From the NCBI RefSeq assembly GCF_027941915.1, contig NZ_CP116009.1, positions 1,860,001 through 1,924,000 of the forward strand: a DNA stretch of 64,000 nucleotides, written 5' to 3'. Positions 4,928 through 24,570 of the stretch are shown piece by piece; position 1 is the first letter of the stretch, and every line of letters begins with the position of its first letter. The notes beneath the pieces are model-generated. The model saw only the letters and a list, made by a program, of their open reading frames with translations. It did no database searches and was not told the DNA's origin. Both the position numbers and the translations under genes were made by a program. This DNA comes from Ramlibacter tataouinensis. Its GTDB lineage: Bacteria > Pseudomonadota > Gammaproteobacteria > Burkholderiales > Burkholderiaceae_C.

Positions 4928-6094
4928 TCAGCGCCCCTCGGTCATCGCCAGCGCTTCCTGCACGTACAGGTAGACCTCCTCCGGGATGGAGGGATGGCGC
5001 TGGCGTTCCTTGGTGCGCCACTGGCCCAGGCGCACGATCACCAGCTCGCGCGAAGGCACCACGATGGCGTACTGCCCCAGGTGCCCCTGCATGAACCAGA
5101 AGGGCGGGCTGTGCTGCGGATCCATCCACAGGCCGTGGCCGTAGTGGGCCACCTTGCCGTTGGACGTGGTCATGCGCTGCACGAAATCCGCCGGCAGCAC
5201 CGGCTGGCCGTTCCACTGGCCGCCCTGCAGCAGCAGCTGCGCCAGCCGCGCCATGTTGCGCGCCGAGGTGTGGAGGCAGCAGTAGGCCAGCTCCATGCCG
5301 CCGTCCTCGCGCGGGTGGTCCAGGCTCCAGCTCGCCTCGGCCAGCCCGAGCGGCTGCCACAGGCGCCGCGAGGCGTAAGCCGACAGCGTCGTGCCGGGCT
5401 CGCGCGCCTGGAGCGCGCGCTGCAGCGCGATGGCCAGCACCTGGGTCGAGGCGCTGCTGTACTCGTAGCCGCTGCCCGGCTCGCGCTCGAAGCCCTGGCG
5501 CAGCACCGTGCCCTGCGCGTCGCCGCCGAAGTACAGCTCGGTGGTCGGGTTGAGCGGCAGGTAGTAGTTCTCGTCCCAGGCGTGGCCCGAGGTCATGGCC
5601 GACAACTGCGCCAGCGTCGCCTGGCGACCCTGCGGATGGCCGGCGTACTCGGTGATCCAGGTGGCCAGCGGCGCGTCGAACGAGGACACGGTACCGTCGG
5701 CCACCGCGGCGCCGGCGAGCATCGTCACCAGCGTCTTGGCCATGGAAAAGACGTTGGTGCGGCTGTCCGGCCCGTATGGCGGGAAGTAGCTCTCGTGCAC
5801 CAGCGCGCCGCGCTGCGCCACCAGGAAGGCCGCGCTGCGGTGCTGGCGCAGGTAGGCGGCCGTACCGTCCGACAGCGGTAGCGCCTGCGCCGCCGGCCAG
5901 GGCTGCGGCGTGCCGCCGGCGACGCGCGCCTGGGTGAAATTGCGCGCGTCGTCGATGTGCGCGGTGTTGTAGCCCTGCAGGTAGGTGAAGCGCAGGGCGT
6001 TCCAGATGTAGCCATGGCCGCTGGCCTGCAGCGCCGCCGCGGCCAGCGCCAGCAGGACCAGCAGCCCAAGCAGGCCGCGCTTGATGTATTTCAT
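4928..6094 (-). CDS. serine hydrolase, beta-lactamase/esterase family
   Basis: A 388-residue serine hydrolase of the class C beta-lactamase/6-aminohexanoate-dimer-hydrolase type. An N-terminal hydrophobic segment (residues 7-24) is a signal anchor. The SxxK catalytic motif is SMAK (Ser117, Lys120), and YSS in GYEYSSAS supplies the Tyr motif; HYGHGLW lies where the third motif is expected. The GGAGCGGAA before the ATG is a fair ribosome site. It starts 19 bases after the 5-formyl-THF cyclo-ligase stop and probably shares its transcript. Substrate unknown; these proteins are usually esterases or peptidases rather than resistance enzymes. Confidence 0.85.
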   Translation of the reverse strand: MKYIKRGLLGLLVLLALAAAALQASGHGYIWNALRFTYLQGYNTAHIDDARNFTQARVAGGTPQPWPAAQALPLSDGTAAYLRQHRSAAFLVAQRGALVHESYFPPYGPDSRTNVFSMAKTLVTMLAGAAVADGTVSSFDAPLATWITEYAGHPQGRQATLAQLSAMTSGHAWDENYYLPLNPTTELYFGGDAQGTVLRQGFEREPGSGYEYSSASTQVLAIALQRALQAREPGTTLSAYASRRLWQPLGLAEASWSLDHPREDGGMELAYCCLHTSARNMARLAQLLLQGGQWNGQPVLPADFVQRMTTSNGKVAHYGHGLWMDPQHSPPFWFMQGHLGQYAIVVPSRELVIVRLGQWRTKERQRHPSIPEEVYLYVQEALAMTEGR

Positions 6095-6113
6095 TTCCGC
6101 TCCCCCTTGGTGT

Positions 6114-6698
6114 TCAGACTGGCCAGACCACGCCGTTGTCGTTCAGGATGGCGTCCAGCGGCACGTCGTGCGGCTCGGGCGCCAGCTCGTCGAGGTAGCC
6201 GGTGGTGAAGCCCAGGCCGACCGTGAACGGCCGCGGCTGCAGCCGGGCCAGGGTGCGGTCGTAGAAGCCGCCGCCGTAGCCCAGTCGGAACCCGCCCGGC
6301 CCATAGCCGACGCAAGGCACGAACAGCAGGGTGGGCACCACCACCTCGGTGTCCTTCGGCTTCGGAATGCCGTAGGCGTCCTCCTCCATCGGGCAGCCGG
6401 GGTGCCAGGCGTGAAATTGGAGCGTCTTGTGCAGCTTGTCCACCACAGGCAGCGCGATGCGGCGCAACTGCGGTTCGTCCAGCAATTCGCCGTCTTCCTT
6501 CCAGCGGTGCAACGCCGGCAGCGGATCGAACTCGCCCTTGATCGGCCAATAGGCGCCGATCACGGTGTCGGGGCGGCCCACCAGCCAGATGCGCATCACC
6601 TGCTGCAGCAGCGCGGAGCGCCGCAGCCGGTCCGGCAGGTTCAGCCGCTCCTCGACCAGGCGCGCCCGCAGGGCTTTTTTCTCCTCCGGCGTGCTCAT
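6114..6698 (-). CDS. fau: 5-formyltetrahydrofolate cyclo-ligase
   Basis: A 194-residue cytoplasmic enzyme converting 5-formyl-THF plus ATP to 5,10-methenyl-THF. Evidence: N-terminal basic helix (KKALRARLVEERLNL), the YWPIKGEFDP segment, and the C-terminal GYGPGGFRLGYGGGFYDRTL, the diagnostic nucleotide/folate site. Length is normal for the family. The ATG is only nine bases from the divergent slt ATG, so its promoter must lie inside slt. It joins metF and the folM/folB genes as folate-related functions in the window, but not in one operon. Confidence 0.9.
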   Translation of the reverse strand: MSTPEEKKALRARLVEERLNLPDRLRRSALLQQVMRIWLVGRPDTVIGAYWPIKGEFDPLPALHRWKEDGELLDEPQLRRIALPVVDKLHKTLQFHAWHPGCPMEEDAYGIPKPKDTEVVVPTLLFVPCVGYGPGGFRLGYGGGFYDRTLARLQPRPFTVGLGFTTGYLDELAPEPHDVPLDAILNDNGVVWPV

Positions 6699-6707
6699 AA
6701 TCCCCCG

Positions 6708-8699
6708 ATGAAGTTCCGGCCGATTCTGACATCCCTGCTGCTGGCGATGGCCGGCGCCGCCTTGGCACAAACCCCCGGCGACGACACCGTGCTGGAGATG
6801 GCGCAGGCCTGGCGCAAGGGCGACAAGGTCCGGCTCGCCCAGCTGCTGCCGCAGGTGCGCGGCCATGCGCTGGAGCCGTGGGCCGCCTACTGGGAGCTGC
6901 GCGCACGCCTGGACACCGCCACGCCGGCCGAGGTGCAGGACTTCCTCGTTCGCTACGCCGGCACCTACCAGGAAGACCGCCTGCGCAACGACTGGCTGCG
7001 GCTGCTGGGCGAGCGGCGCGACTGGGCCAGCTTCGCCGACCTGCACGCGCACTACCGGATGCAGGACGACCCGCAGGTCAAGTGCTATGCCCTGCTGGTG
7101 CAGCACCTGAGCGAAGGCCCCGCCGCGCCGGCCACCCTGGGCGACGAGGTGCGGCGCCTCTGGTTCGCCCAGCGCAACGACGATGACGCCTGCAGCCACG
7201 CGGCCAGCCGCCTGATGGGCGAGGCCGGCGGGCGCAACCGGCTGGTGCAGGCCGATGCCTGGCGCAAGGCGCGGCTGGCGATCGAGGCCAATCGCCCCCG
7301 CGCGGCGGCCGCCGCGGTGGAGATGGTCGCACCCGAGGCCTTGCCGCTGCTGGCGCAGATCGAGGCCAGCCCGACCAGGTTCCTGGCCGCCCGGGTGAGC
7401 GCCGCGTCGCGCGTGCGCAAGGAGCTGATCGGGCTGGCCCTGCTCAAGCTGGCCACCGGCGACATCGACAACGCCGCGCGCCTGCTGGAGGACAAGTGGG
7501 GGCCCCAGATCTCGCCCGAAGAGCGCAACTGGATCTGGGGCACGATCGCCAAGCAGTCGGCCCAGCGCCAGTCGCCCGATGCGCTCGGCTACTACGCGCG
7601 CGTCTCGCGCGACAGCGACCTGAGCGACGACATGCTGGCCTGGAAGGCGCGCGCCGCGCTGCGCGCCGGCAACCGCCCGCTGTGGGACAGCGTGCGGACC
7701 GCCATCGACGCCATGAGCGATGCGGCGCAGCAGGATCCGGCCTGGCAGTACTGGAAGGCGCGCGCCCTGCTGGCGTCGGGCCGCGAGGCGCAGCGCGCCC
7801 AGGCCGCCCGGATGCTGGAGGCGCTGGCTTCCCCGCGCGGCTTCTATGAGCAGCTGGCGCTGGAGGAGCTGGGACGCCCGGTGACGGTGCCCGCGCCGCC
7901 GGCGCCGCTGACACCCGAAGAGCGCGAGGCGGCGCGGCTGAATCCCGCGCTCAACCGGGCGCTGTACGCCATCCTGATCGGGCTGCGCCCCGAGGGCAAC
8001 CGCGAATGGGTCTATGCCACCGCGCTCGCCAGGCCCGGCGGCATGGGCGAGCGCGAGCTGCTGGCGGCCGCCCAGATGGCGTGCGAGCGCGAAGTCTGGG
8101 ACCGCTGCATCAACACCAGCGAGCGCACCCGCGAGGCCTTCGACGCCCAGCAGCGCTTCCCGATGCCGCACCGCGACGCGGTGGTGCGCCGCAGCCAGGC
8201 GATCGGGCTCGATCCGGCCTACGTCTATGGCCTGATCCGCCAGGAAAGCCGCTTCATCATGGACGCCCGCTCGCACGTCGGCGCCAGCGGCCTGATGCAG
8301 GTGATGCCGGCGACGGCGCGCTGGACCGCGCGCAAGATCGGGCTGAACGGGTTCCGGCCGGAGCAGCTCACCGACCGCGAGACCAACATCACCATCGGCA
8401 CCGCCTACCTGAAGCTGGCACTGGACGACCTGGACGGCTCCATGCCGCTGGCTGCCGCCGCCTACAACGCCGGCCCGCGCCGGCCGCGCGCCTGGCGCAA
8501 CGGCCCGGTCATGGAAGCCGCCGCCTGGGCCGAGGGCATCCCGTTCGGCGAGACGCGCGACTACGTCAAGAAGGTGCTGGCCAACACCACGCTGTACGCC
8601 GCCATCCTGACCGGCCAGCCGCAATCGCTGAAGGCCCGCCTGGGGCTGGTCGGCCCGCGCGACGCCGCGCTCCCCGAGCCCATGCCCGACCTCCCCTGA
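6708..8699 (+). CDS. slt: soluble lytic murein transglycosylase
   Basis: A 663-residue periplasmic enzyme cleaving the MurNAc-GlcNAc bond to give 1,6-anhydromuropeptides. Residues 1-20 are a signal peptide ending ALA-Q. Residues about 30-480 are the all-helical superhelical domain; the C-terminal SLT domain has the catalytic Glu at about residue 513 in LIRQESRF, then GASGLMQVMPATA and AAYNAGP. Length is close to E. coli Slt70. AnmK, which recycles the anhydroMurNAc product, is also in this window. The start ATG is nine bases from the divergent fau start. Confidence 0.93.
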   Translation: MKFRPILTSLLLAMAGAALAQTPGDDTVLEMAQAWRKGDKVRLAQLLPQVRGHALEPWAAYWELRARLDTATPAEVQDFLVRYAGTYQEDRLRNDWLRLLGERRDWASFADLHAHYRMQDDPQVKCYALLVQHLSEGPAAPATLGDEVRRLWFAQRNDDDACSHAASRLMGEAGGRNRLVQADAWRKARLAIEANRPRAAAAAVEMVAPEALPLLAQIEASPTRFLAARVSAASRVRKELIGLALLKLATGDIDNAARLLEDKWGPQISPEERNWIWGTIAKQSAQRQSPDALGYYARVSRDSDLSDDMLAWKARAALRAGNRPLWDSVRTAIDAMSDAAQQDPAWQYWKARALLASGREAQRAQAARMLEALASPRGFYEQLALEELGRPVTVPAPPAPLTPEEREAARLNPALNRALYAILIGLRPEGNREWVYATALARPGGMGERELLAAAQMACEREVWDRCINTSERTREAFDAQQRFPMPHRDAVVRRSQAIGLDPAYVYGLIRQESRFIMDARSHVGASGLMQVMPATARWTARKIGLNGFRPEQLTDRETNITIGTAYLKLALDDLDGSMPLAAAAYNAGPRRPRAWRNGPVMEAAAWAEGIPFGETRDYVKKVLANTTLYAAILTGQPQSLKARLGLVGPRDAALPEPMPDLP

Positions 8700-8710
8700 A
8701 AGTGATCTCC

Positions 8711-8760
8711 CACCCCCGAAGCGCCTTCGGCGCCTCCCCCTCGAGGGGGCGCCACCAGCG
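8711..8760. repeat. palindromic intergenic repeat after slt
   Basis: Two adjacent hairpins follow slt: GCGCC-TTC-GGCGC (8721-8733) and the perfect 14-mer CCCCCTCGAGGGGG (8736-8749), within a phrase (CCCCCGAAGCGCCTTCGGCGC) that recurs in Comamonadaceae intergenic DNA as I recall it. It may also stop slt transcription. It is REP-like; copy number elsewhere cannot be checked here. Confidence 0.6.
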
Positions 8761-8849
8761 GCCCGGCGAAGCCGGTTCCGCGGTCGCACTGGCATGGACC
8801 TACGCTTTCGGGGGCCACGTGGGGCCAATGACCGCCCGGGAGAGCTGAC

Positions 8850-9377
8850 GTGGACGCGTGGAACCGGGTCCTTGCCACTGTGGCGGACGAGTTCTCGGAC
8901 CTGCCGGACGTCGAGACCTTCACGCGGGTGGCGGTGCGGCTGGTGCTGGCGGCGCTGCTGGGCGCGCTGGTGGGGCTGGAGCGGGAACTGGCCGGCAAGC
9001 CGGCCGGCTTGCGCACCCACATGCTGGTGGCGCTGGGCGCGGCGCTGTTCGTGCTGATCCCGCTGCAGGGCGGCATGGACACGGACGGCATCAGCCGCGT
9101 GATCCAGGGTTTGCTGGCCGGCGTCGGCTTCTTGTGCGCCGGCGCCATCCTCAAGGGCGACACCGAGGACGAAGTGCAGGGCCTGACCACCGCCGCCAGC
9201 CTGTGGATGACCTCGGCCATCGGCATGGGCGTCGGCCTGGGCCGCGACACCACGGCCGCCCTCGCCACCGTGCTGGTGCTGGCCATCCTGCGGCTGGAAG
9301 GCCCGCTGCGGCGCTGGATCGAGGCGCGCCGCATCCGCCGGGTCGTGGTCCGGCCGGACGACGCCGCCGGCCCCTGA
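8850..9377 (+). CDS. MgtC/SapB family membrane protein
   Basis: A 175-residue inner-membrane protein with about four or five helices and the family signature GALVGLERELAGKPAGLRTHMLVALGAALF (given in part) followed by VIQGLLAGVGFLCAGAILK. The family modulates growth at low magnesium and the F-ATPase in some pathogens; most environmental members have no known role. The start is GTG at 8850, preceded by GGGAGAG. It lacks the long C-terminal ACT-like extension of Salmonella MgtC, so it is the short SapB-like form. Confidence 0.85.
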   Translation: MDAWNRVLATVADEFSDLPDVETFTRVAVRLVLAALLGALVGLERELAGKPAGLRTHMLVALGAALFVLIPLQGGMDTDGISRVIQGLLAGVGFLCAGAILKGDTEDEVQGLTTAASLWMTSAIGMGVGLGRDTTAALATVLVLAILRLEGPLRRWIEARRIRRVVVRPDDAAGP

Positions 9378-9469
9378 CCCGCCCGACCGCATCAATGGTG
9401 CGGGCTTTCGGCATCAATGCCGGCGCGGGCCGGCGCTAGCATCCGCGGCACATCGGTTCCGGAGGCCCC

Positions 9470-10153
9470 ATGCTCAAGCTCTACATCGGCAGCAAGAACT
9501 ACTCGTCCTGGTCCATGCGGCCCTGGGTGCTGATGCGCCAGGCCGGCATCCCGTTCGAGGAGGTGAAGCTGCGCTTCGACTCGTTCGCCGCCGACTCGCA
9601 GTTCAAGCGCTCGCTCGCCGAGGTCAGCCCCGCCGGCAAGGTGCCGGTGCTGGTGGACGGGAACCTGACGGTGTGGGACAGCCTGGCCATCGCCGAATAC
9701 CTGGCCGAGAAGTTCCCCGACAAGGCGCTGTGGCCGCGCGACCTGCAGGCACGCGCCCGCGCGCGCAGCGTCTGCGCCGAGATGCACTCGGGCTTCGCCG
9801 CCCTGCGCGGCCTGTGCCCGATGAACATCGAAGCCTCGCTGCCGGACGTCGGCCCGCTCGGCTACCGCGACAAGCCGGCGGTGCGCGCCGACGTCGATCG
9901 CATCGTGGCCATGTGGACCGAACTGCTGCAGCAGTCCGGCGGGCCGCTGCTGTTCGGCGACTTCAGCATCGCCGACGCGTTCTACGCACCGATCTGCATG
10001 CGCTTCCGGACCTATGGCATGCCCGTGCCGCCCGCCATCGCCGGCTACATGGATCGGCTCGGCGCCCAGCCCGGGGTGAAGGCCTGGATCGACGGCGCGC
10101 TGGCGGAGCAGGACTTCCGCGAGTTCGAGGAACCGTACCGGCTCTCGCGCTGA
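9470..10153 (+). CDS. glutathione S-transferase family protein
   Basis: A 227-residue cytoplasmic protein. Residues 1-80 are the thioredoxin-like GST domain ([15 protein letters not shown] holds the candidate catalytic Ser/Tyr; KVPVLVDG has the cis-Pro; [11 protein letters not shown] binds glutathione). Residues 90-220 are the helical domain, with [13 protein letters not shown] as the conserved N-capping box. It resembles the YfcF/maleylacetoacetate-isomerase-like branch. Substrate unknown. A probable ribosome site, GGAGGC, lies just upstream. Confidence 0.88.
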
Positions 10154-14023: not shown

Positions 14024-14773
14024 TTGGCTGCATCTGAGGAATCCGGCTTGGCTGCATCGAACGAGCTCATCCGATGGTTGCGCCTGTTGGCGCTGCCCGT
14101 GTGGGCCCGCGCGACCATTCTGCTCTTGGTGGTCATTGTCGTTCTTGGCGGCACCGCGCTTCTTTTCGGCAGCGCCCTGCGTCGCGACGCCGAGCAGGCC
14201 TCGTCGGCGATCGCGCTGCTGACCGTCTCGATGCCGGTGCTGCTGCTGGTTGTCGCCCTGGTCTTCGGACAGAACAGCGACAGTCGGCTGCGCCAGCTCA
14301 CGGCGGGGGTCCTGAGCCGGGATGTTCCACGGGCGATGCGGGAAAACCTCGGCGCCATGGGCGCGCAGGACCCGGAGGTTCGCCTGCGTGGCTGCTGCGC
14401 CGACTACACGCTGCGATTGTCCGGAACCGATCCCGCCGAGGCGCTGCGCTTCAGCCTCGAGCTGAACGTCTTCAAGGTCAACGTCTGCTTCTGGCTCGAT
14501 GGCGTTTCGCTACCGGGGAAGGCCGGCGTGGACAGCGCCGAGCTCGCCGCTTTCCGCCATGTGTTCCTGGGCGCTGTTGCAGAGGGATACCGGATGAACG
14601 AAGAGCCGGCCCACTATGCCGATTCGAACCATGGTATTGGTCTGATCTTCTTTCGGACCCTGGCCCCGGATTTCCTGTTGCACCCCGAGCAGCGCCTTTA
14701 TTTCGTTCAGGACCTGTCGTTCTTCGTGCGCGGCGTGGTCGAGGCACAGCGTCGCGCGAGGCTTGCCCGATGA
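14024..14773 (+). CDS. membrane protein of unknown function heading the pterin operon
   Basis: A 249-residue protein I do not recognise. Two strong membrane helices (about residues 25-50 and 62-84) are followed by a soluble domain of about 165 residues with GCCADYTLRLSGTDPAEALRFS and SLELNVFKVNVCFWLDG, predicted alpha/beta, which could face the cytoplasm. No enzyme motif is visible. The start is a TTG after AGGTAGGGG; another in-frame TTG is at 14048. Its stop overlaps the FolM-like start (ATGA), so it is coupled to the pterin genes. Third-position G/C bias looks weaker than in flanking genes, hinting at transfer. Confidence 0.7.
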   Translation: MAASEESGLAASNELIRWLRLLALPVWARATILLLVVIVVLGGTALLFGSALRRDAEQASSAIALLTVSMPVLLLVVALVFGQNSDSRLRQLTAGVLSRDVPRAMRENLGAMGAQDPEVRLRGCCADYTLRLSGTDPAEALRFSLELNVFKVNVCFWLDGVSLPGKAGVDSAELAAFRHVFLGAVAEGYRMNEEPAHYADSNHGIGLIFFRTLAPDFLLHPEQRLYFVQDLSFFVRGVVEAQRRARLAR

Positions 14774-15561
14774 CCCGGTGGACCATGATCACCGGTGGCT
14801 CCCGCCGCCTGGGGCGCGAGATCTGCATGGCCTTCGCACAACGGGGCTGGAACATCGTCTGCCACTACCGGGATTCGGCCGCGGAAGCGGGGGACGTGGT
14901 CGAACAGGCACGCACGCTCGGTGTGCAAGCCTTGGCCCTCCAGGGGTCGCTTGACAGCGAGGGCGATGCCGAGTCGCTGTTCCACCGGGCTTGCGCGGGC
15001 ATCGGCGAGGCGCCCTCCTGCATCGTCAACAACGCCTCGACCTTTCTTCCCGACGCCGCCACCGATTTCGTCGCGCAGTCGTTCCTGCGGCAGTTGCAGA
15101 CCAATCTCCTGGTGCCTCTGGTGCTGGGAAAGCTCCTTCATGCCAGCTGGTCGCAGGCATCTCACGCAAGCGGGGTGGCCAGCGTGGTCAACGTGCTCGA
15201 CCAGAAGGTCTACAACCTGAACCCGGACTACTACTCGTACACCCTCACCAAGCTGGCCCTGGAGCGGGCCACGATCCAGCAAGCCCAGGCCCTGGCCCCC
15301 ACGCTGCGCGTGAATTCGGTCGTTCCCGGGCTGATGTACCCGAGCGGCCCCCAGACCCTCGAGAACTTCCGGATGGCCGCCAGCGCGAACCTGCTGCGGC
15401 GCCCGGTCGAGCCGGCCCGGGTGGCGGAGGCCGTCTTCTTCATGGCTTCCAACGACGGCATCACCGGGACGAGCGTCTGCGTGGACAATGGCCAGCACCT
15501 CGTCCCCCTGCCACGCGACATCATGTTCGTCGTGGACGACCTGCTGCGAAAGAACGCATGA
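14770..15561 (+). CDS. folM: SDR-family pteridine reductase (FolM-like)
   Basis: A 263-residue short-chain dehydrogenase. TGGSRRLG (residues 8-15) binds the dinucleotide and its Arg suits NADPH; NNAS and the catalytic YxxxK in YSYTLTK are present. FolM reduces dihydromonapterin (and dihydrofolate) to the tetrahydro form. Assignment rests on the SDR fold plus direct coupling to two FolB genes; a generic SDR reductase is the alternative. It overlaps the upstream gene at ATGA and the next gene at ATGA. Confidence 0.75.
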   Translation: MTRWTMITGGSRRLGREICMAFAQRGWNIVCHYRDSAAEAGDVVEQARTLGVQALALQGSLDSEGDAESLFHRACAGIGEAPSCIVNNASTFLPDAATDFVAQSFLRQLQTNLLVPLVLGKLLHASWSQASHASGVASVVNVLDQKVYNLNPDYYSYTLTKLALERATIQQAQALAPTLRVNSVVPGLMYPSGPQTLENFRMAASANLLRRPVEPARVAEAVFFMASNDGITGTSVCVDNGQHLVPLPRDIMFVVDDLLRKNA

Positions 15562-15944
15562 ACCCCAGCGAACGGCTTCTGCACTGTCGTCGAATCTTCC
15601 TGCGCGGCCTGCAGGTCGAGGCGGTGATCGGCGTGCACGAGTTCGAGAAGGACCGGCCGCAGCGGGTACTCATCGACGTCGACCTGTACGTCTCCATGGC
15701 ATCGCCGGCCCGGGACTCGATCGAAGAGGTCGTCGACTACGACTTCGTTCGCGACCTCGTGCTGGAGCGGGTTGCGAGGGGCCCGATCGCACTCCAGGAG
15801 ACACTGTGCGATGACATCCTCCGGAGCGTGCTCGCGCATCCGGAGGTGGAAGCCGCCCGGGTCAGCACGCGCAAGCCGGACGTCTATCCGGATTGCGAGT
15901 CGGTCGGCGTGGAAGTGTTCCGGTTCAATCCGACAGCCAAATGA
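15558..15944 (+). CDS. folB: dihydroneopterin aldolase/epimerase, copy 1
   Basis: A 128-residue FolB/FolX-family protein. The active-site positions of E. coli FolB are kept: Glu in GVHEFEK, Tyr in VVDYDFVRD and Lys in STRKPDVYPD. It cleaves dihydroneopterin to hydroxymethyldihydropterin, or epimerises it if FolX-like. It differs strongly from the adjacent second copy and has weaker third-position G/C bias. Both ends overlap neighbours by four bases, so the four genes are tightly coupled. Confidence 0.85.
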   Translation: MNPSERLLHCRRIFLRGLQVEAVIGVHEFEKDRPQRVLIDVDLYVSMASPARDSIEEVVDYDFVRDLVLERVARGPIALQETLCDDILRSVLAHPEVEAARVSTRKPDVYPDCESVGVEVFRFNPTAK

Positions 15945-16312
15945 ACCCAAACGGCGGCAAGGAAGTCCTGACGCTCACCGGGCTGCGCTTCGATGCCAAC
16001 CTGGGCATCCTCGAGCACGAGAAGGCGAGTCCGCAGCCGATCCGCGTCGATGCCGAGCTGAACCTGGGCATCCAGCCGCTGCTGCCGCGCGACGACGACA
16101 TCCTGCACGTGCTGGACTACCGCAAGGTGCGCAAGATCATCATCGACGAGTGCACCGCCGAGCACGTCAACCTGCTCGAGAGCCTGATCGGCAAGCTGGC
16201 GCTGCGGCTGATGCAGCTGCCCGGCGTGCTGGGCGTGCGGGTGAAGATCGCCAAGCTGGCGATCTTCGAGGACTGCGAGGTCGCGATCCGGGTCGAGACC
16301 GGGCTCTGGTAG
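15941..16312 (+). CDS. folB: dihydroneopterin aldolase, copy 2
   Basis: A 123-residue second FolB-family protein in tandem with the first. It has LGILEHEK (Glu), VLDYRKVR (Tyr) and KIAKLAIFEDCEVAI (Lys, with Leu where Pro usually follows). Composition matches the flanking chromosome, suggesting this is the resident copy. The start at 15941 is fixed by the ATGA overlap; a longer frame begins inside copy 1. Whether one copy is an aldolase and the other an epimerase cannot be read from sequence. Confidence 0.85.
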   Translation: MNPNGGKEVLTLTGLRFDANLGILEHEKASPQPIRVDAELNLGIQPLLPRDDDILHVLDYRKVRKIIIDECTAEHVNLLESLIGKLALRLMQLPGVLGVRVKIAKLAIFEDCEVAIRVETGLW

Positions 16313-16743: not shown

Positions 16744-18362
16744 CACTTGTGCCCCATGGCCGAGGAAGCGCCGGGCGCCGCCGCCGGTTGCGCCGGCATC
16801 GGGGTGGCCGAGCGCGTCTGCGACGGCGGCAGCGTGGCGCCGTCGGCCGCGGCCTGCGGCTGGCGCTTGCCGTCGGCCTTGACGTTGGCGTCGGCCCACT
16901 TGAAGTAGGCGATGTATTCCCTGACCTCGGCGTCGCTCAACCCCTGGTTGGGCATGGGCACCTTGTACTTGCCCATCATCTCCTTGGCGATCGGGTCGCT
17001 CTGGATCATCTGCTCGGGCGCCTTCATCCAGCGCGCCAGCCACGCTTCGTCGCGGCGCCGGGTGACGCCCAGCACATCGGGCCCCATGCGGTCGCCGCCG
17101 CCGATGGTGTGGCAGGCCAGGCACTTCTGCTCGAAAGCCAGCTTGCCGCGCTGCGCGACCGGGTCGGTCGGCGCGCCGGTGGCCGGGATGTTGTGGTGCT
17201 CGGGGTCGGTGCCCGGCGCGGTGCCGGCGTCGATGATGCCGACCGCGCCCTGTGAGGCGTTGGCGAAATGGTGATCGACCATGGCATAGCCGCCCGCCTC
17301 GGGCACGATGAACTCGACGATCGCGCCGCTGGACGAGCCGAGCAGCACGGTCTGCATGCCGCGGAACTGGTTGTCCGGGTTGCCGTCGATCCAGACCCGG
17401 TCGAAGATGGTGCCGACCACGTGGAAGCTGGAGGTGTTGGACGGCCCCACGTTCAGCACGAACAGGCGCACCTTCTCCAGCGGCTTGGCCGGCAGCGGCT
17501 TGTCGATCATGCCGTTGTAGCGGCCGTTGAACACGGTGTAGGTGGGCGCCTTGGCGCGCACCCGGTCGCCGTCCAGCACGTACAGCGGCGCGCCGTCGAC
17601 CTTGCGCTTTTCCGGATCGGGCTTGGTGTAGAACTCGCTTTGCACCACCGCGTACTCGCGGTCCACCCGGGTCGGGTAGCCGCCCCGCGGCTCCACGATC
17701 ATCATGCCGTACATGCCCGAGGCGATGTGCTCCAGCACCATCGGCGTGCCGCAGTGGTACATGAACACGCCGGGGTAGTTGGCGGTGAATTCGAACGAGA
17801 TGGTCTGGCCCGGTGCGATCGAGCGGTACTTGTCGTTGGGCGCCACCATCGCCGAGTGGAAGTCCATCGAATGCATCATCGGCGCGGTGGTCACGCGCGG
17901 GCCCGGCATGGCCTCGTCGGAGCGGTTGCTCATGACGAAGCGGATGCGGTCGCCGACCTTGGCGCGCACCACCGGGCCCGGCACCATGTCGCCGAAGGTC
18001 CAGGCGCTGTACTTCACGCCCGGTGCGATCTCGATGATCTTGTGGGTGATGTCCAGCCGGATCTCCTTGACCGGCGCCGGGTCCAGCGGCCTGAGCGCCG
18101 CCTCCATGCTGAGCGCATTCCCGGCCGCGAACGGACCGGTGTGGCGCTCGCTGGTGACCACCGCCGCCGGCGAGCCGAAGGCCATGTGCTTGTGGTCGTA
18201 CGGGTCGCCGCCGGGTCCCGGGCCGGCGGCCGTCGCGCGGCCCGGCGCCGAGGCGGCGCCGGCGCTGGAAGTCGTCGTCTGGCTGTCGCAGGCCGCCAGC
18301 GTGAAGGCCAGCAGGCCGCACAGGAGGGCTCCGGGCCAGGACTGGCTCGAATTGAAAGGCAT
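16743..18362 (-). CDS. NirK-like two-domain copper protein fused to cytochrome c
   Basis: A 539-residue exported lipoprotein (lipobox LAAC, Cys25). Residues about 95-380 form two cupredoxin domains with copper ligands in NirK order: H164-x-x-D167-x-H169, H203-C204, H212, M217 and a His in VDHHF (364/365). Residues about 400-490 are a class I cytochrome c (CLACH, C414/C417/H418). It resembles heme-fused copper nitrite reductases, but where the well-studied enzymes have the second catalytic His in GGHGD this protein has GTIFD, so nitrite reduction is uncertain; another copper oxidase role is possible. GAGGAG precedes the ATG. No nitric oxide reductase is in the window. Confidence 0.85.
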   Translation of the reverse strand: MPFNSSQSWPGALLCGLLAFTLAACDSQTTTSSAGAASAPGRATAAGPGPGGDPYDHKHMAFGSPAAVVTSERHTGPFAAGNALSMEAALRPLDPAPVKEIRLDITHKIIEIAPGVKYSAWTFGDMVPGPVVRAKVGDRIRFVMSNRSDEAMPGPRVTTAPMMHSMDFHSAMVAPNDKYRSIAPGQTISFEFTANYPGVFMYHCGTPMVLEHIASGMYGMMIVEPRGGYPTRVDREYAVVQSEFYTKPDPEKRKVDGAPLYVLDGDRVRAKAPTYTVFNGRYNGMIDKPLPAKPLEKVRLFVLNVGPSNTSSFHVVGTIFDRVWIDGNPDNQFRGMQTVLLGSSSGAIVEFIVPEAGGYAMVDHHFANASQGAVGIIDAGTAPGTDPEHHNIPATGAPTDPVAQRGKLAFEQKCLACHTIGGGDRMGPDVLGVTRRRDEAWLARWMKAPEQMIQSDPIAKEMMGKYKVPMPNQGLSDAEVREYIAYFKWADANVKADGKRQPQAAADGATLPPSQTRSATPMPAQPAAAPGASSAMGHK

Positions 18363-18384
18363 CTCGCTCTTCTCCTCGTTAGGT

Positions 18385-20233: not shown

Positions 20234-20890
20234 ATGGAACCCACGCGCATCATCGCCGTGCGCCACGGCGAGACGTCCTGGAACGTGGATGCGAGGATCC
20301 AGGGCCAGACCGACGTCGGCCTGAACGACACCGGCCGCTGGCAGGCCCGCCGGCTGGGCCAGGCGCTGGCTGGCGAGCCGATCAGCGCGATCTACTCCAG
20401 CGACCTCGGCCGCGCCCAGGAGACCGCGCGCTCCATTGCCGAGACCGCCGGCGCCGCGGGCGCCGCCGTCATCCCGCACCAGGGCCTGCGCGAGCGCTGC
20501 TTCGGCATGTTCGAGGGCAAGACCTTCGACGAGATCCATCGGCAGTGGCCCGACCAGGCCCACAACTGGCGCAAGCGCATCCCCGACTGGCAGCCGCCCG
20601 AGGGCGGCGAATCGCTGCTGCAGCTGCGCGAGCGCGTCACCCGCACGCTGCACGAGCTGGCCTCGCGCCACCTCGGCGAGCTGATCGTGGTGGTCGCACA
20701 CGGCGGCGTGCTGGATGCCATCTACCGGGTGGCGACCGGCCAGGAAGTCAATGCGCCGCGCACCTGGGAACTGCCCAACGGCGCCATCAACCGCCTGCTC
20801 TGGACCCCGCAAGGCTTCACCCTGGTGGGCTGGTCCGACACGCAGCACCTCGACGACGCCCATGCTCCGGCCGACGAAACGACCGCTTAG
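20234..20890 (+). CDS. histidine phosphatase family protein
   Basis: A 218-residue phosphoglycerate-mutase-like phosphatase. The phospho-His motif is VRHGETSWN, with the second His in VVVAHGGVLDAIYR and a Glu in LRERCFGMFEGKTF. It resembles GpmB/CobC-type phosphatases; the substrate is not evident. It overlaps the next gene by 29 bases, so they are likely one transcript. Confidence 0.85.
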   Translation: MEPTRIIAVRHGETSWNVDARIQGQTDVGLNDTGRWQARRLGQALAGEPISAIYSSDLGRAQETARSIAETAGAAGAAVIPHQGLRERCFGMFEGKTFDEIHRQWPDQAHNWRKRIPDWQPPEGGESLLQLRERVTRTLHELASRHLGELIVVVAHGGVLDAIYRVATGQEVNAPRTWELPNGAINRLLWTPQGFTLVGWSDTQHLDDAHAPADETTA

Positions 20891-22055
20891 CGACACCCTC
20901 CGGCAACTGATCGGCCAGCCGGCCGACGCCATCGACACCCCGGCCCTGGTGGTCGATCTCGACGCCATGCAGCGCAACCTGAACCGCATGGCCGAGTTCG
21001 CGAAAAAGCACGACATCCGCTGGCGCCCGCACGCCAAGATGCACAAGAGCTCGGCCATCGCGCGGCTGCAGATGCACGCCGGCGCCGCCGGCATCTGCGT
21101 GCAGAAGACCGCCGAGGCCGAAGCGATGGCGGCCGGCGGGTTGAAGGACATCTTCATCAGCAACGAGGTGATCGCGCCGGCCAAGCTGGCGCGGGTGGCC
21201 AGGCTGGCCCACCGGCTGGCGGCCGAGGACGGCCAGCTGGCGATCGCGGTGGACAGCCGCGAGGGCATCAGCCGGCTGGGCCATGCCATGAACGAGGCCC
21301 GGCGCAGCAGCGGCAAGGCGGCGGTGATCGACGTGTTCGTCGAGATCGACGTCGGCTCGGGCCGATGCGGGGTGGCGCCCGGCCGCTCGGCCGTCGAGCT
21401 GGTGCACGAGATTCGGCGGCATCCGGCGCTGCGCTTCATGGGCCTGCAGGCCTACCACGGGCGCGCCCAGCATGTGCGCAGCGCGCAAGAGCGGCGCGAC
21501 ATCATCGCCCAGGCCGCGCGCGACGCCGCCTTCACCCGGAAGCTGATCCAGGACGAGGGCGTCGCGGTCAGCCTGGTCACCGGCGCCGGGACCGGCAGCA
21601 TGGTGTGCGAGGCGGCCAGCGGCGTCTATGGCGAGCTGCAGGTCGGCTCGTTCCTGTTCATGGATGCCGACTACGCGCAGAACGAGCGCGACCCGGCGCA
21701 GCCGCAGTTCGAGCACGCGCTGTTCGTCAAGACCCAGGTGATCAGCAGCGGGCTGGCGCACGCCGTGTGCGATGCCGGCCACAAGAGCCATGCGATCGAC
21801 TCCGGCCTGCCAAAGGTGCACCGGCCGGAAGGCGCCGCCGAACTGGAATACGCCAACGGCGGCGACGAGCACGGCATCCTGCGCCCGGTCGGCGGCGGCC
21901 CGGTGCCGGCGATCGGCGACATCCTGTGGCTGGTCCCCGGCCACTGCGACCCGACGGTCAACCTGCATGACCACATCCTGGGCGTCAAGGGCGGCCTGCA
22001 GCACGGCCACGTCGACCGGGTGATCCGGGTCGATGCGCGCGGCGCCCTGACCTGA
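20862..22055 (+). CDS. D-threonine aldolase-like PLP enzyme
   Basis: A 397-residue fold-III PLP enzyme. The Schiff-base Lys is in RPHAKMHKS (about residue 59). VFVEIDVGSGRCGV and TGAGTGS bind cofactor, and the divalent metal ligands of D-threonine aldolases and D-serine dehydratases are present as His and Asp in GHCDPT near residue 350. Likely reaction: cleavage of D-threonine or a related D-beta-hydroxy amino acid to glycine and aldehyde. DSD1-type D-serine dehydratase is the alternative. Starts inside the phosphatase gene. Confidence 0.85.
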   Translation: MLRPTKRPLSDTLRQLIGQPADAIDTPALVVDLDAMQRNLNRMAEFAKKHDIRWRPHAKMHKSSAIARLQMHAGAAGICVQKTAEAEAMAAGGLKDIFISNEVIAPAKLARVARLAHRLAAEDGQLAIAVDSREGISRLGHAMNEARRSSGKAAVIDVFVEIDVGSGRCGVAPGRSAVELVHEIRRHPALRFMGLQAYHGRAQHVRSAQERRDIIAQAARDAAFTRKLIQDEGVAVSLVTGAGTGSMVCEAASGVYGELQVGSFLFMDADYAQNERDPAQPQFEHALFVKTQVISSGLAHAVCDAGHKSHAIDSGLPKVHRPEGAAELEYANGGDEHGILRPVGGGPVPAIGDILWLVPGHCDPTVNLHDHILGVKGGLQHGHVDRVIRVDARGALT

Positions 22056-22113: not shown

Positions 22114-23871
22114 ATGTCTTCCAGCCAAGTCATCGTCCTGGCGACGCCGGTCTTCCTGCTGCTGATCGCGATCGAGTTCGCCTGGGGCCGGGCCCGGGGG
22201 CGCAACACCTACCGGCTCAACGACGCCATCAACAGCATCGGGCTGGGCATGCTCAGCCAGGTCACGGCGGTGTTTACCCGGCTGTTGCGGGTCGGCATCT
22301 ACACCGCGGTGTACGGCTCCGTGGCGCTCTGGCGAAACGACGAATTCTGGATGTCGTGGTACGGCTGGCTGCTGGCGCTGCTGTTCTACGACCTCTGCTA
22401 CTACTGGCTGCACCGGGCCGGCCACGAGAGCGCCGTGTTCTGGGCGGCGCACGTGGTGCACCACCAGAGCCAGGACTACAACCTGTCCACCGCGCTGCGC
22501 CAGACCTCCAGCGGCGCCCTGCTCGGCTGGATCTTCTACCTGCCGATGGCCCTGGCCGGCGTGCCGCCGCTGGTGTTCGGCGTGGTGGCCCTGATCGACC
22601 TGCTGTACCAGTTCTGGGTCCACACCGAGCACGTGCCCAAGCTGGGCTGGTTCGACCGCTGGTTCTGCTCGCCGTCCAACCACCGCGTGCACCACGCCGT
22701 GAACGACCGCTACCTCGACCGCAACTACGGCGGCATCCTGATCGTCTGGGACCGCCTGTTCGGCAGCTTCAGGGAGGAAGACGAGAAGTGCGTCTATGGC
22801 ACCCGCAGCCCGCTGAACAGCTGGGACCCGCTCTGGTCCAACGGCGAGGTGTACTGGGCGCTGGCCAGGGACAGCTGGCATGCGAGGAGCTGGGCCGACA
22901 AGCTGCGCGTCTGGATCAAGCCGCCCGGCTGGCGGCCGGCCGACGTGGCGGCGCGCTTTCCCAGGCCGGTGTTCGACATCGCCCGGGTCGAGCGCTACCA
23001 CCCGCCGATGACGCGGGCGGTGGCCGGCTTCGGCGCCGTGCAGTTCCTTGCGCTGCTGGGCGGCGTGTCGCTGTTCCTGTGGCACGCCGACCGCACGCCG
23101 CTGCCGGTCAGTGCCGTGTGGCTGGCGGTGCTGGCCGCCGTCCTGTGGTGCACCGGTGCCGTGATGCAGGGGCGCATCACCGTGCTGGCCGCCCTGATGA
23201 TCGAGTCGGGTGCGCTGGCCACCGCCACCTCGGCGGTCGGACTGGTCGAACTGCACCGCTTGTTCAAGCCGTTGGCCATGGTGCTGGCCATCGCGCTGGT
23301 CGTGCTGCGGGCGCGCAGCCAGGGAGGGCTGCGCAAGTTCGACGGGCTGCTGGTGGCCGGACTGGCGTTCTCGCTGGCAGGCGACGTGCTGCTGATGCTG
23401 CCGGGCAACTTCATCGCCGGCCTGGTGGCCTTCCTGCTGGCGCACGTGGCCTACATCGCGCTGTTCCGCCTGGGCGTGGGCTGGCTGCCGCGGCCCTGGG
23501 CGCTGGCGGCCACGCTCGGTGTCGGGGCCGCCATGTACGCCGTGTTGTGGCCCGGCCTGGGCCCGGTGCTCAAGCCCGCCGTCGCCGCCTACGTGATCGT
23601 CATCGGCCTGATGGCGGCGCAGGCGATCGGCCGCGCCGCGGCGCTGAAGGACCGGGCCTCGCTGGCGGTCGCCCTCGGCAGCGTGTTCTTCATGCTCAGC
23701 GACTCGCTGCTGGCGCTGAATCGCTTCCACCAGCCGCTGCCGATGGCGCAATTCTGGGTGCTGTCCACCTACTACCTGGCGCAGGTGCTGATCGCGCTGA
23801 ATGCGCGGCCGGCCCTGGTTGCGGGCGCCCGGGCGCCCGCTTCAGCCACCCTGCCCGCCGGCGCGGCCTGA
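22114..23871 (+). CDS. alkylglycerol monooxygenase-like / lysoplasmalogenase-like fusion
   Basis: A 585-residue multi-pass membrane protein. Residues 1-250 are a fatty-acid-hydroxylase/sterol-desaturase domain with the full His set: HRAGH (100-104), HVVHH (113-117), HTEH (170-173), HRVHH (190-194). [10 protein letters not shown] and [10 protein letters not shown] closely resemble the animal alkylglycerol monooxygenase AGMO. Residues about 385-570 are a YhhN/TMEM86 domain ([45 protein letters not shown]), the lysoplasmalogenase family. Both known activities cleave ether bonds of lipids, so a two-step ether-lipid degrading enzyme is the natural inference. The 3' end overlaps the convergent ABC gene by 30 bases. 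Confidence 0.85.
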
Positions 23872-24570
23872 GCCGCCGACGCGCTCGTCGCGCGCGATCC
23901 GCCCATCCACCAGCTCCACCCGCCGGTCGCAGCGCGCGGCCAGCCGCGGATCATGGGTCACCACGATGAACGAGGTGCCGCGCTCGGCGTGGATGCGCCG
24001 CAGCAGCGCGAACACCTCGTCGGAGGTGGCGGTGTCGAGGTTGCCGGTCGGTTCGTCTGCCAGCACCAGCGCCGGCTGCAGCACCAGCGCCCGGGCGATC
24101 GCCACCCGCTGCTGCATGCCGCCCGACAGCTGCGCCGGGCGCTTGTCCATCGCGGCGGCCAGGCCGACGGCAGCGAGCAGCTCCCGGGCCTGGGCCAGGC
24201 GCGAGCGTTCGACGCGGCCTTCGGCCATCAGCACCGGCAGCGTGACGTTCTCCAGTGCGCTGAAGGCCGGCAGCAGATGGTGGAACTGGAACACGAAGCC
24301 CAGCGTGCGGCGCCGCCGCAGCGTCAGCGCCGCATCGTCCAGGCCGCCGACCTCCTCGCCCTGCAGCCGGTAGCTGCCGGCCGTCATGCGCTCGAGCAGC
24401 CCAACGATGTTCAGCAGCGTGCTCTTGCCCGAGCCGGACGGCCCGACCAGCGCGACGAACTCGCCCGCATCGAGCCGCAGGTCGATGCCGTGCAGCACCT
24501 CGGCCTCGCTGGGCAGGCCGAGGTTGTAGCTCTTGCGCACCCCGGCCCATTGCAGCAGCGCGTCGGCCAT
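23842..24570 (-). CDS. ABC transporter ATP-binding protein (LolD/MacB type)
   Basis: A 242-residue ATPase with Walker [10 protein letters not shown], signature [15 protein letters not shown], Walker B LVLADEPT and H-loop [27 protein letters not shown] is typical of the LolD/MacB branch, which powers lipoprotein or peptide/drug export without substrate crossing a membrane channel. Third gene of a tripartite operon with adaptor and permease; it starts one base from the permease stop. Confidence 0.9.

Follow-up and report, generated by a model that had tools for sequence, protein, structure and literature searches.

An AGMO-like oxygenase fused to a YhhN/TMEM86 domain in Ramlibacter tataouinensis and its relatives, a predicted enzyme of ether lysolipids

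We analysed 64,000 nucleotides of Ramlibacter tataouinensis DNA (contig NZ_CP116009.1, positions 1,860,001 to 1,924,000; hereafter, the window, to which coordinates refer unless a locus is named). A single open reading frame of 585 amino acids plus stop, started by ATG and free of internal stop codons, occupies 22114-23871 (+). Pfam places an FA_hydroxylase domain at residues 85-218 (22366-22767 (+); PF04116, E = 8.3 × 10−30, 104.4 bits against a curated cut-off of 31) and a YhhN/lysoplasmalogenase domain at residues 381-562 (23254-23799 (+); PF07947, E = 1.5 × 10−48, 165.4 bits against a cut-off of 25.6), the latter covering model positions 2-180 of 182. This confirms that 22114-23871 joins a di-iron oxygenase like alkylglycerol monooxygenase (AGMO) to a complete YhhN/TMEM86 domain. 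An initial annotation, made from the letters of the window, had claimed such a single-chain fusion; both halves score far above their curated cut-offs, the C-terminal one does match YhhN, and the protein stretches that the annotation quoted are present in the translation. Upstream lie genes for a histidine phosphatase family protein (20234-20887 (+)) and a D-serine dehydratase/aldolase-like protein with Ala_racemase_N and D-ser_dehydrat domains (20886-22052 (+)), the latter with no evident link to lipids. Downstream, a convergent gene for a LolD-like ABC ATPase (23842-24570 (−)) shares its last 30 bases with the 3′ end of the fusion gene. Searched against its own genome, a single contig of 4.47 Mb, the fusion protein has no second match (E up to 0.001).

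To compare the protein with the animal enzymes, we used the residue numbers printed in the available parts of the relevant papers rather than aligned animal sequences. For human AGMO, the residues whose change to alanine abolishes activity are given in PMC3617469 and PMC7911779; according to the same partial texts, changing Glu137 raises the Km for tetrahydrobiopterin 18-fold, and this residue, important for tetrahydrobiopterin, is described as missing in other FA hydroxylases (PMC3617469). At an offset of −32, the window protein matches 7 of 7 printed residues (H132, H136, E137, H145, H148, H149 and Q162), and at an offset of −31 it matches 9 of 9 (H201, H221, H224, H225, D233, N235, Y236, W243 and D244), compared with only 3 of 7 and 3 of 9 at the next-best offsets. 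All 16 printed AGMO residues are thus matched, including 9 of 9 histidines, in agreement with the complete histidine pattern that the initial annotation had seen in the first 250 residues. They lie in the first histidine clusters (H100..H104-E105 and H113..H116-H117, 22411-22464 (+)), at H170 (22621-22623 (+), the equivalent of the ninth conserved histidine, AGMO H201), and in the stretch H190..H193-H194, D202, N204, Y205, W212 and D213 (22681-22752 (+)); E105 is the equivalent of the pterin-linked Glu137. For TMEM86A, eight residues were mutated and all except one glycine affected activity, as far as the available text of PMC11994398 reports. All eight (K43, G81, D82, H104, G182, S189, D190 and Y213) are matched, at offsets of 342 and then 340, by K385, G423, D424, H444, G522, S529, D530 and Y553, which bears out the YhhN/TMEM86 motifs noted earlier in the last ~190 residues. 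All 24 positions are invariant across 61 aligned fusions, namely the window protein and 60 of 80 fusion loci kept for analysis; three loci (L085, L093 and L095) were omitted because their matched stretch passes a stop codon near its end, and 17 more to keep the alignment small.

The position of Glu137 separates these proteins, albeit not exclusively, from shorter members of the FA_hydroxylase family. It is Glu in 105 of 106 fusion rows (some genes being counted twice, as two collections cover the same genomes) and in 35 of 43 AGMO-sized proteins, compared with 8 of 26 shorter relatives of ~300 amino acids, in which Arg is commonest (16 of 26). The positions of Q162, D233, N235, Y236, W243 and D244 are also common to the 300-aa relatives, each in 20-26 of 26 rows. 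The AGMO residues other than Glu are therefore largely shared with the short relatives and mark a competent di-iron hydroxylase rather than AGMO itself; what points to AGMO is the Glu, the protein length and the C-terminal block described below. One fusion (L019) and eight AGMO-sized proteins (L104, L110, L111, L117, L123, L147, L150 and L158) have R, Q, M or T in place of the pterin Glu, and such AGMO-type proteins may use another electron donor or cofactor. Between the window gene and each of 12 other fusions, dN/dS was below 1 in every pair and in all three segments compared, with values of ~0.11-0.36 for residues 1-290, 0.27-0.61 for residues 291-376 and 0.26-0.57 for residues 377-562 (dS being high in some pairs), which shows that both halves are under purifying selection.

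Between the two Pfam domains lies a block of three model helices (residues 301-374, 23014-23235 (+)), for which BLAST finds a counterpart in the C-terminal region of several stand-alone AGMO-like proteins. By sequence comparison, this block is assigned to the AGMO-like half and is not a mere linker, a point that the initial annotation had missed. The stand-alone proteins, measured from the residue aligned with position 1 of the window protein, come in two lengths: a short form (359-376 aa) that stops about where the YhhN part of the fusion starts, and a long form (406-440 aa) with an extra hydrophobic stretch. Animal AGMO has four C-terminal helices according to the available part of PMC7911779. 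AGMP_C, the Pfam model of the AGMO C-terminal domain, matched above its cut-off at the AGMO-like gene in 4 of 30 genomes (G306, G539, G519 and G043) and below it in eight more, the matched genes all being of the long form; at that loose limit, 3 of 14 control genomes also gave sub-cut-off matches. Against the window protein AGMP_C gave no match at E up to 10, against its genome none at E up to 1, and none at the AGMO-like gene of those searched genomes that carry a fusion, a de-fused copy or the short form. The window block, however, matches the corresponding block of G539 (L132), which passes AGMP_C, with E = 4 × 10−8 over 64 residues (BLAST), so that homology to AGMP_C is likely even though the model itself does not match. 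All 11 stand-alone rows of the clade beside the fusions have the short form, ten with 371-376 aa and one with 359, and the junction therefore falls at the natural end of these nearest relatives.

YhhN proteins have eight helices, as described in the available text of PMC9052158. The AlphaFold model of the fusion has seven helices in residues 378-563, plus a helix at 357-374 that also aligns with the AGMO-like part; judging from the model, this helix probably serves both halves and takes the place of the first YhhN helix. Seven YhhN-only genes of the fusion type (49-62% identity) start at query residues 274, 297, 305, 339, 358, 359 and 364, and an eighth, in G005 of the window's genus, at residue 369; they look like remnants of the fusion, and their start positions are no more than suggestive with regard to the junction and the shared helix. 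The mean number of Lys plus Arg per loop in 61 fusions is 13.3 for residues 214-300, followed by 0.4, 1.0, 0.0 (residues 373-379), 2.2, 0.05 and 2.9 up to residue 462, and by 0.95, 1.4 and 1.0 in the later loops, a pattern consistent with an oxygenase part in the cytoplasm and a junction at the outer face, and less clear towards the C-terminus. The model has a mean pLDDT of 80.3 and a pTM of 0.81, with most of the YhhN part over 90. The ten-residue blocks around the metal ligands reach a pLDDT of 49-74, too low for the model to inform on the di-iron site or on how far apart the active sites lie. A search of solved structures by sequence gave no match at E up to 1, and Foldseek against the PDB gave 67 matches at E up to 10, none of them at 0.001.

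We then surveyed relatives of the fusion, as the initial annotation had proposed, and found it to be common rather than singular. Of 298 relatives in titled genome records, we kept 80; all 80 span both halves, at 67-83% identity, and the genera and groups that carry them include Ramlibacter, Caenimonas, Polaromonas, Hydrogenophaga, Hylemonella, Curvibacter, Variovorax, Acidovorax and Burkholderiales bins. A full-length fusion is present in 21 of 37 genomes of the window's genus. Of 150 genomes sampled in the window's family, 27 carry the fusion; one of these is split (G1078), and in the others the match starts at residue 1-4 and reaches at least residue 560. A further 32 carry a stand-alone AGMO-like gene only, defined as a match that starts by residue 7, ends at 330-383 and scores at least 253 bits. 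Six of the counted fusion matches cross one TGA; in G330 and G687 the frame is open through the YhhN domain. Outside the family, there was no fusion among the matches listed for 300 genomes of the order, 398 of the phylum and 370 of the class, the last extending down to E of about 3 × 10−14. Among relatives on plasmids (56 records), none covers at least 80% of the query. Around the 80 loci, whose flanks are short, the neighbours that recur are the aldolase-like gene (50 loci), the phosphatase (49), TtcA (40) and LolD (26), and none of them occurs in the two Variovorax loci listed; this recurrence favours vertical descent in part of the family.

In a tree of 28 of the 106 fusion rows, 43 AGMO-sized rows and 26 short rows (a quick, non-bootstrapped method; branches among the short rows are very long), all 28 sampled fusions fall in one group with an SH-aLRT of 86. 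Nested inside this group are the stand-alone oxygenases of G013 and G026, both of the window's genus, neither genome having a YhhN match, and YhhN was probably lost twice from the fusion. The converse remnant, a fusion-type YhhN without the oxygenase, was seen in G1170, G1066, G1133, G1106, G1058, G1153, G1166 and G005, the last (L161) retaining the YhhN part, and G022 has fragments in several frames. A partial undoing of the fusion is thus apparent in several genera, and these losses and remnants imply that the two halves are not inseparable.

Where AGMO-like and YhhN genes are separate, they are occasionally neighbours. In G306, an ATG of the YhhN frame and the stop of the AGMO-like gene overlap as ATGA. 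In G049, an LplT-type transporter joined to an acyltransferase is followed by an AraC-type regulator, YhhN and the AGMO-like gene, the last two 1 base apart; this run of four genes on one strand (L191, G049:C2:64000-82000, 5150-10078) looks like a compact ether-lysolipid operon, and its LplT-acyltransferase gene fits lysophospholipid handling. In G648 and G632, which represent two genera of a single family, YhhN and an AraC gene form a pair on one strand and the AGMO-like gene points towards them from the opposite strand, the AraC gene lying in between (domains checked in G648). The linkage thus occurs in three bacterial families in three different arrangements. Separate genes lie within 3 kb of each other in 4 of 47 genomes, compared with 0.07 expected (Poisson P = 9 × 10−7, or 5 × 10−5 if the synteny-sharing G648 and G632 are counted once); the 47 genomes comprise 22 from the YhhN check, 21 from the family sample and 4 among the matches listed in the class sample, and the expectation ignores that a few carry two copies of one gene. 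In the remaining 43 of 47, the two genes are not neighbours. Within the family, 22 of the 32 genomes that carry a stand-alone AGMO-like gene also have YhhN, vs. 12 of 91 that lack such a gene (p = 9 × 10−9, Fisher's test, uncorrected for kinship). The tie is looser outside the family: of 41 genomes that carry the stand-alone gene there, 20 gave no YhhN match, among them all 11 members of the short-form clade nearest the fusions. The fusion, the operon and the co-occurrence within the family together make a shared pathway likely, albeit not an obligatory partnership. The pterin Glu is replaced (T, R and R) in three of the four genomes with neighbouring genes, which counts against the AGMO reading. 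As a separate observation, one group of AraC-type regulators adjoins the AGMO-like gene, or lies one gene from it, in 5 of 26 loci from 25 genomes (L189, L190, L191, L200 and L202, from three bacterial families), and is QhpR/GliR-like in the two that were searched.

By analogy with the two characterised enzymes, we hold with moderate confidence that both halves release fatty aldehyde from ether lysolipids, one chain covering the alkyl and alkenyl classes. The protein would be an integral-membrane enzyme of two domains, removing the sn-1 ether chain of lyso-ether lipids. Its N-terminal half (residues 1 to about 374) would be an AGMO-type di-iron oxygenase that uses O2 and a reduced pterin, probably tetrahydromonapterin, and hydroxylates the ether-linked carbon of alkylglycerols or lyso-alkyl phospholipids, giving a hemiacetal that would decay into a fatty aldehyde. 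The C-terminal half (residues ~357-563) would be a lysoplasmalogenase that hydrolyses the vinyl-ether bond of lysoplasmalogens, likewise to a fatty aldehyde, and the protein would act on whichever ether lysolipid arrives. In the available parts of the papers, AGMO is described as converting alkyl ethers to the aldehyde through a hemiacetal (PMC7911779) and lysoplasmalogenase as converting alkenyl ethers to fatty aldehyde (PMC11994398). The initial annotation had suggested that one bacterial polypeptide may handle both kinds of ether lipid. The anatomy of the protein and the functional link seen in gene neighbourhood and family co-occurrence now speak for that suggestion, and dual handling is the interpretation that we find most likely; the activities of the two halves, their cofactor and substrates and the role of the protein in the cell are what we infer from these data. 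For the role, the simplest guess would be detoxification of, or carbon supply from, the ether lipids of other organisms. The earlier suggestion of host lipids or endogenous plasmalogens found no support; the record titles that name a source refer to leaf, root, groundwater, reactor and similar samples rather than to hosts. We know of no activity for any close relative of the fusion.

An alternative that we regard as unlikely, yet worth weighing, is that the substrate of the oxygenase half is some other membrane lipid or a secondary metabolite, for instance of the ornithine-lipid, hopanoid or pigment type, which it would hydroxylate, and that YhhN was joined to it for membrane remodelling and not for ether cleavage. 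The sole NCBIfam match of the protein is to the ornithine lipid hydroxylase OlsE, at a score (55.7 bits) far under the equivalog cut-off of 475. The bacterial AGMO-like enzyme PRUB680 has a non-lipid substrate, according to the available descriptions, and 10 of 20 plasmid relatives among the matches listed are named sterol desaturase (family), the others bearing no name. The absence of YhhN from 20 of 41 AGMO-like genomes outside the family also agrees with this alternative. Against it, the group stands apart from the 300-aa hydroxylases by its Glu and by the AGMO C-terminal domain seen in the long stand-alone form, and the linkage to YhhN, and once to an LplT-acyltransferase gene, points to lysophospholipids.

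The two halves might instead act in sequence on one molecule, the oxygenase turning an alkyl ether into a vinyl ether (as PEDS1 does) or a hemiacetal that YhhN would then hydrolyse or collapse, with the substrate channelled between them. Both known reactions end in an aldehyde, that of AGMO via a hemiacetal (PMC7911779 and PMC11994398, as far as their available text goes), and the fusion and the ATGA-overlapping pair put the products side by side; human AGMO, however, is active when expressed alone in hamster cells (PMC3617469, available part), and two genomes of the window's genus retain the oxygenase only. We consider sequential action very improbable. A more elaborate proposal, in which the hemiacetal is handed within one protein to a YhhN site that collapses it and that also takes vinyl-ether lysolipids, would make the fusion a single-chain dealkylase with a tetrahydromonapterin-dependent AGMO, a shared helix and a shared pocket, and a mark of a bacterial catabolic pathway for ether lysolipids comprising AGMO, YhhN, LplT/acyltransferase and an AraC-type regulator, of which the papers searched gave no description; we regard this combination as quite improbable. 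That the fusion is neutral or driven by expression, and merely joined unrelated membrane enzymes that happened to be adjacent, would agree with the 43 of 47 genomes in which the separate genes lie apart and with the partial undoing of the fusion in several lineages. It is hard to reconcile with neighbourhood in three families and three layouts, with co-occurrence in the family and with the conservation of both active sites, and we give it very little credence. Our preferred reading remains the release of aldehyde from both ether classes by the two halves of one chain.

The fusion can be set beside several known systems, here again by what the available parts of the papers describe. With animal AGMO/TMEM195 (EC 1.14.16.5) it shares the FA_hydroxylase domain and, at equivalent positions, nine histidines, the pterin Glu and six further residues that are essential there; its helix block starts at residue 301, 88 positions past the last essential Asp, compared with 90 in human AGMO (TM6 from residue 334). 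Unlike animal AGMO, which has four helices after the catalytic part, the fusion has three, followed by a second enzyme domain; it is bacterial, probably uses another tetrahydropterin and has no AGMP_C match, and its AGMO activity is a prediction. Like YhhN/TMEM86 lysoplasmalogenases (EC 3.3.2.2), it has a near-full-length YhhN domain with all eight proposed residues, whereas this part is not a separate protein and its first helix is apparently supplied by the AGMO-like half. PRUB680 of Pseudoalteromonas rubra, an AGMO-like enzyme that cyclises prodigiosin (PMC7911779 and PMC6667630), is likewise bacterial and AGMO-like and performs another reaction, the likeness resting on description. Bacterial AGMO-like enzymes (through PRUB680) and bacterial lysoplasmalogenases, such as those of Legionella and Mycobacterium, are thus already known, and in bacteria that lack plasmalogens the enzyme has been interpreted as protection from host lysolipids (PMC9471318, on lysoplasmalogenase). 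We found no description of an AGMO-YhhN fusion or gene pair in the open-access papers searched. If our reading is correct, a bacterial AGMO-type family tied to lysoplasmalogenase would be a tractable source of both enzymes, the questions of AGMO cofactor and substrate would become testable in E. coli, and aerobic bacteria would appear to degrade ether lysolipids.

Several further features of the window and of related loci were noted. The pterin cofactor of the bacterial AGMO-like half is presumably tetrahydromonapterin. At 14770-16309, 5.8-7.3 kb upstream of the fusion gene, a FolM/pteridine-reductase-like SDR is followed by two FolB-type (dihydroneopterin aldolase) genes, each start overlapping the previous stop. 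These genes match Pfam FolB twice and fall short of the NCBIfam cut-offs for folB, pteridine reductase and dihydromonapterin reductase, and FolM was matched in 2 of 80 fusion loci, a count of little weight with flanks of about 4 kb at most; we do not take these genes as evidence of a cofactor supply. A search for CarF/PEDS1 (PF10520), as a sign of plasmalogen synthesis, matched 0 of 60 genomes, the control likewise matching nowhere, so that this zero carries no information. Genes of a putative ALDH-like cluster, named by eye from the sequence, lie near the AGMO-like gene in 3 of 26 loci: directly downstream on the same strand in L204 (4924-6471), and with other genes between in L196 (3436-4899) and L197 (2806-4308), which are from one genus. 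The ALDH neighbour was dropped as evidence. Elsewhere in the window, 16746-18380 (−) encodes a multicopper oxidase with a C-terminal cytochrome c domain, which presumably resembles nitrite reductase.
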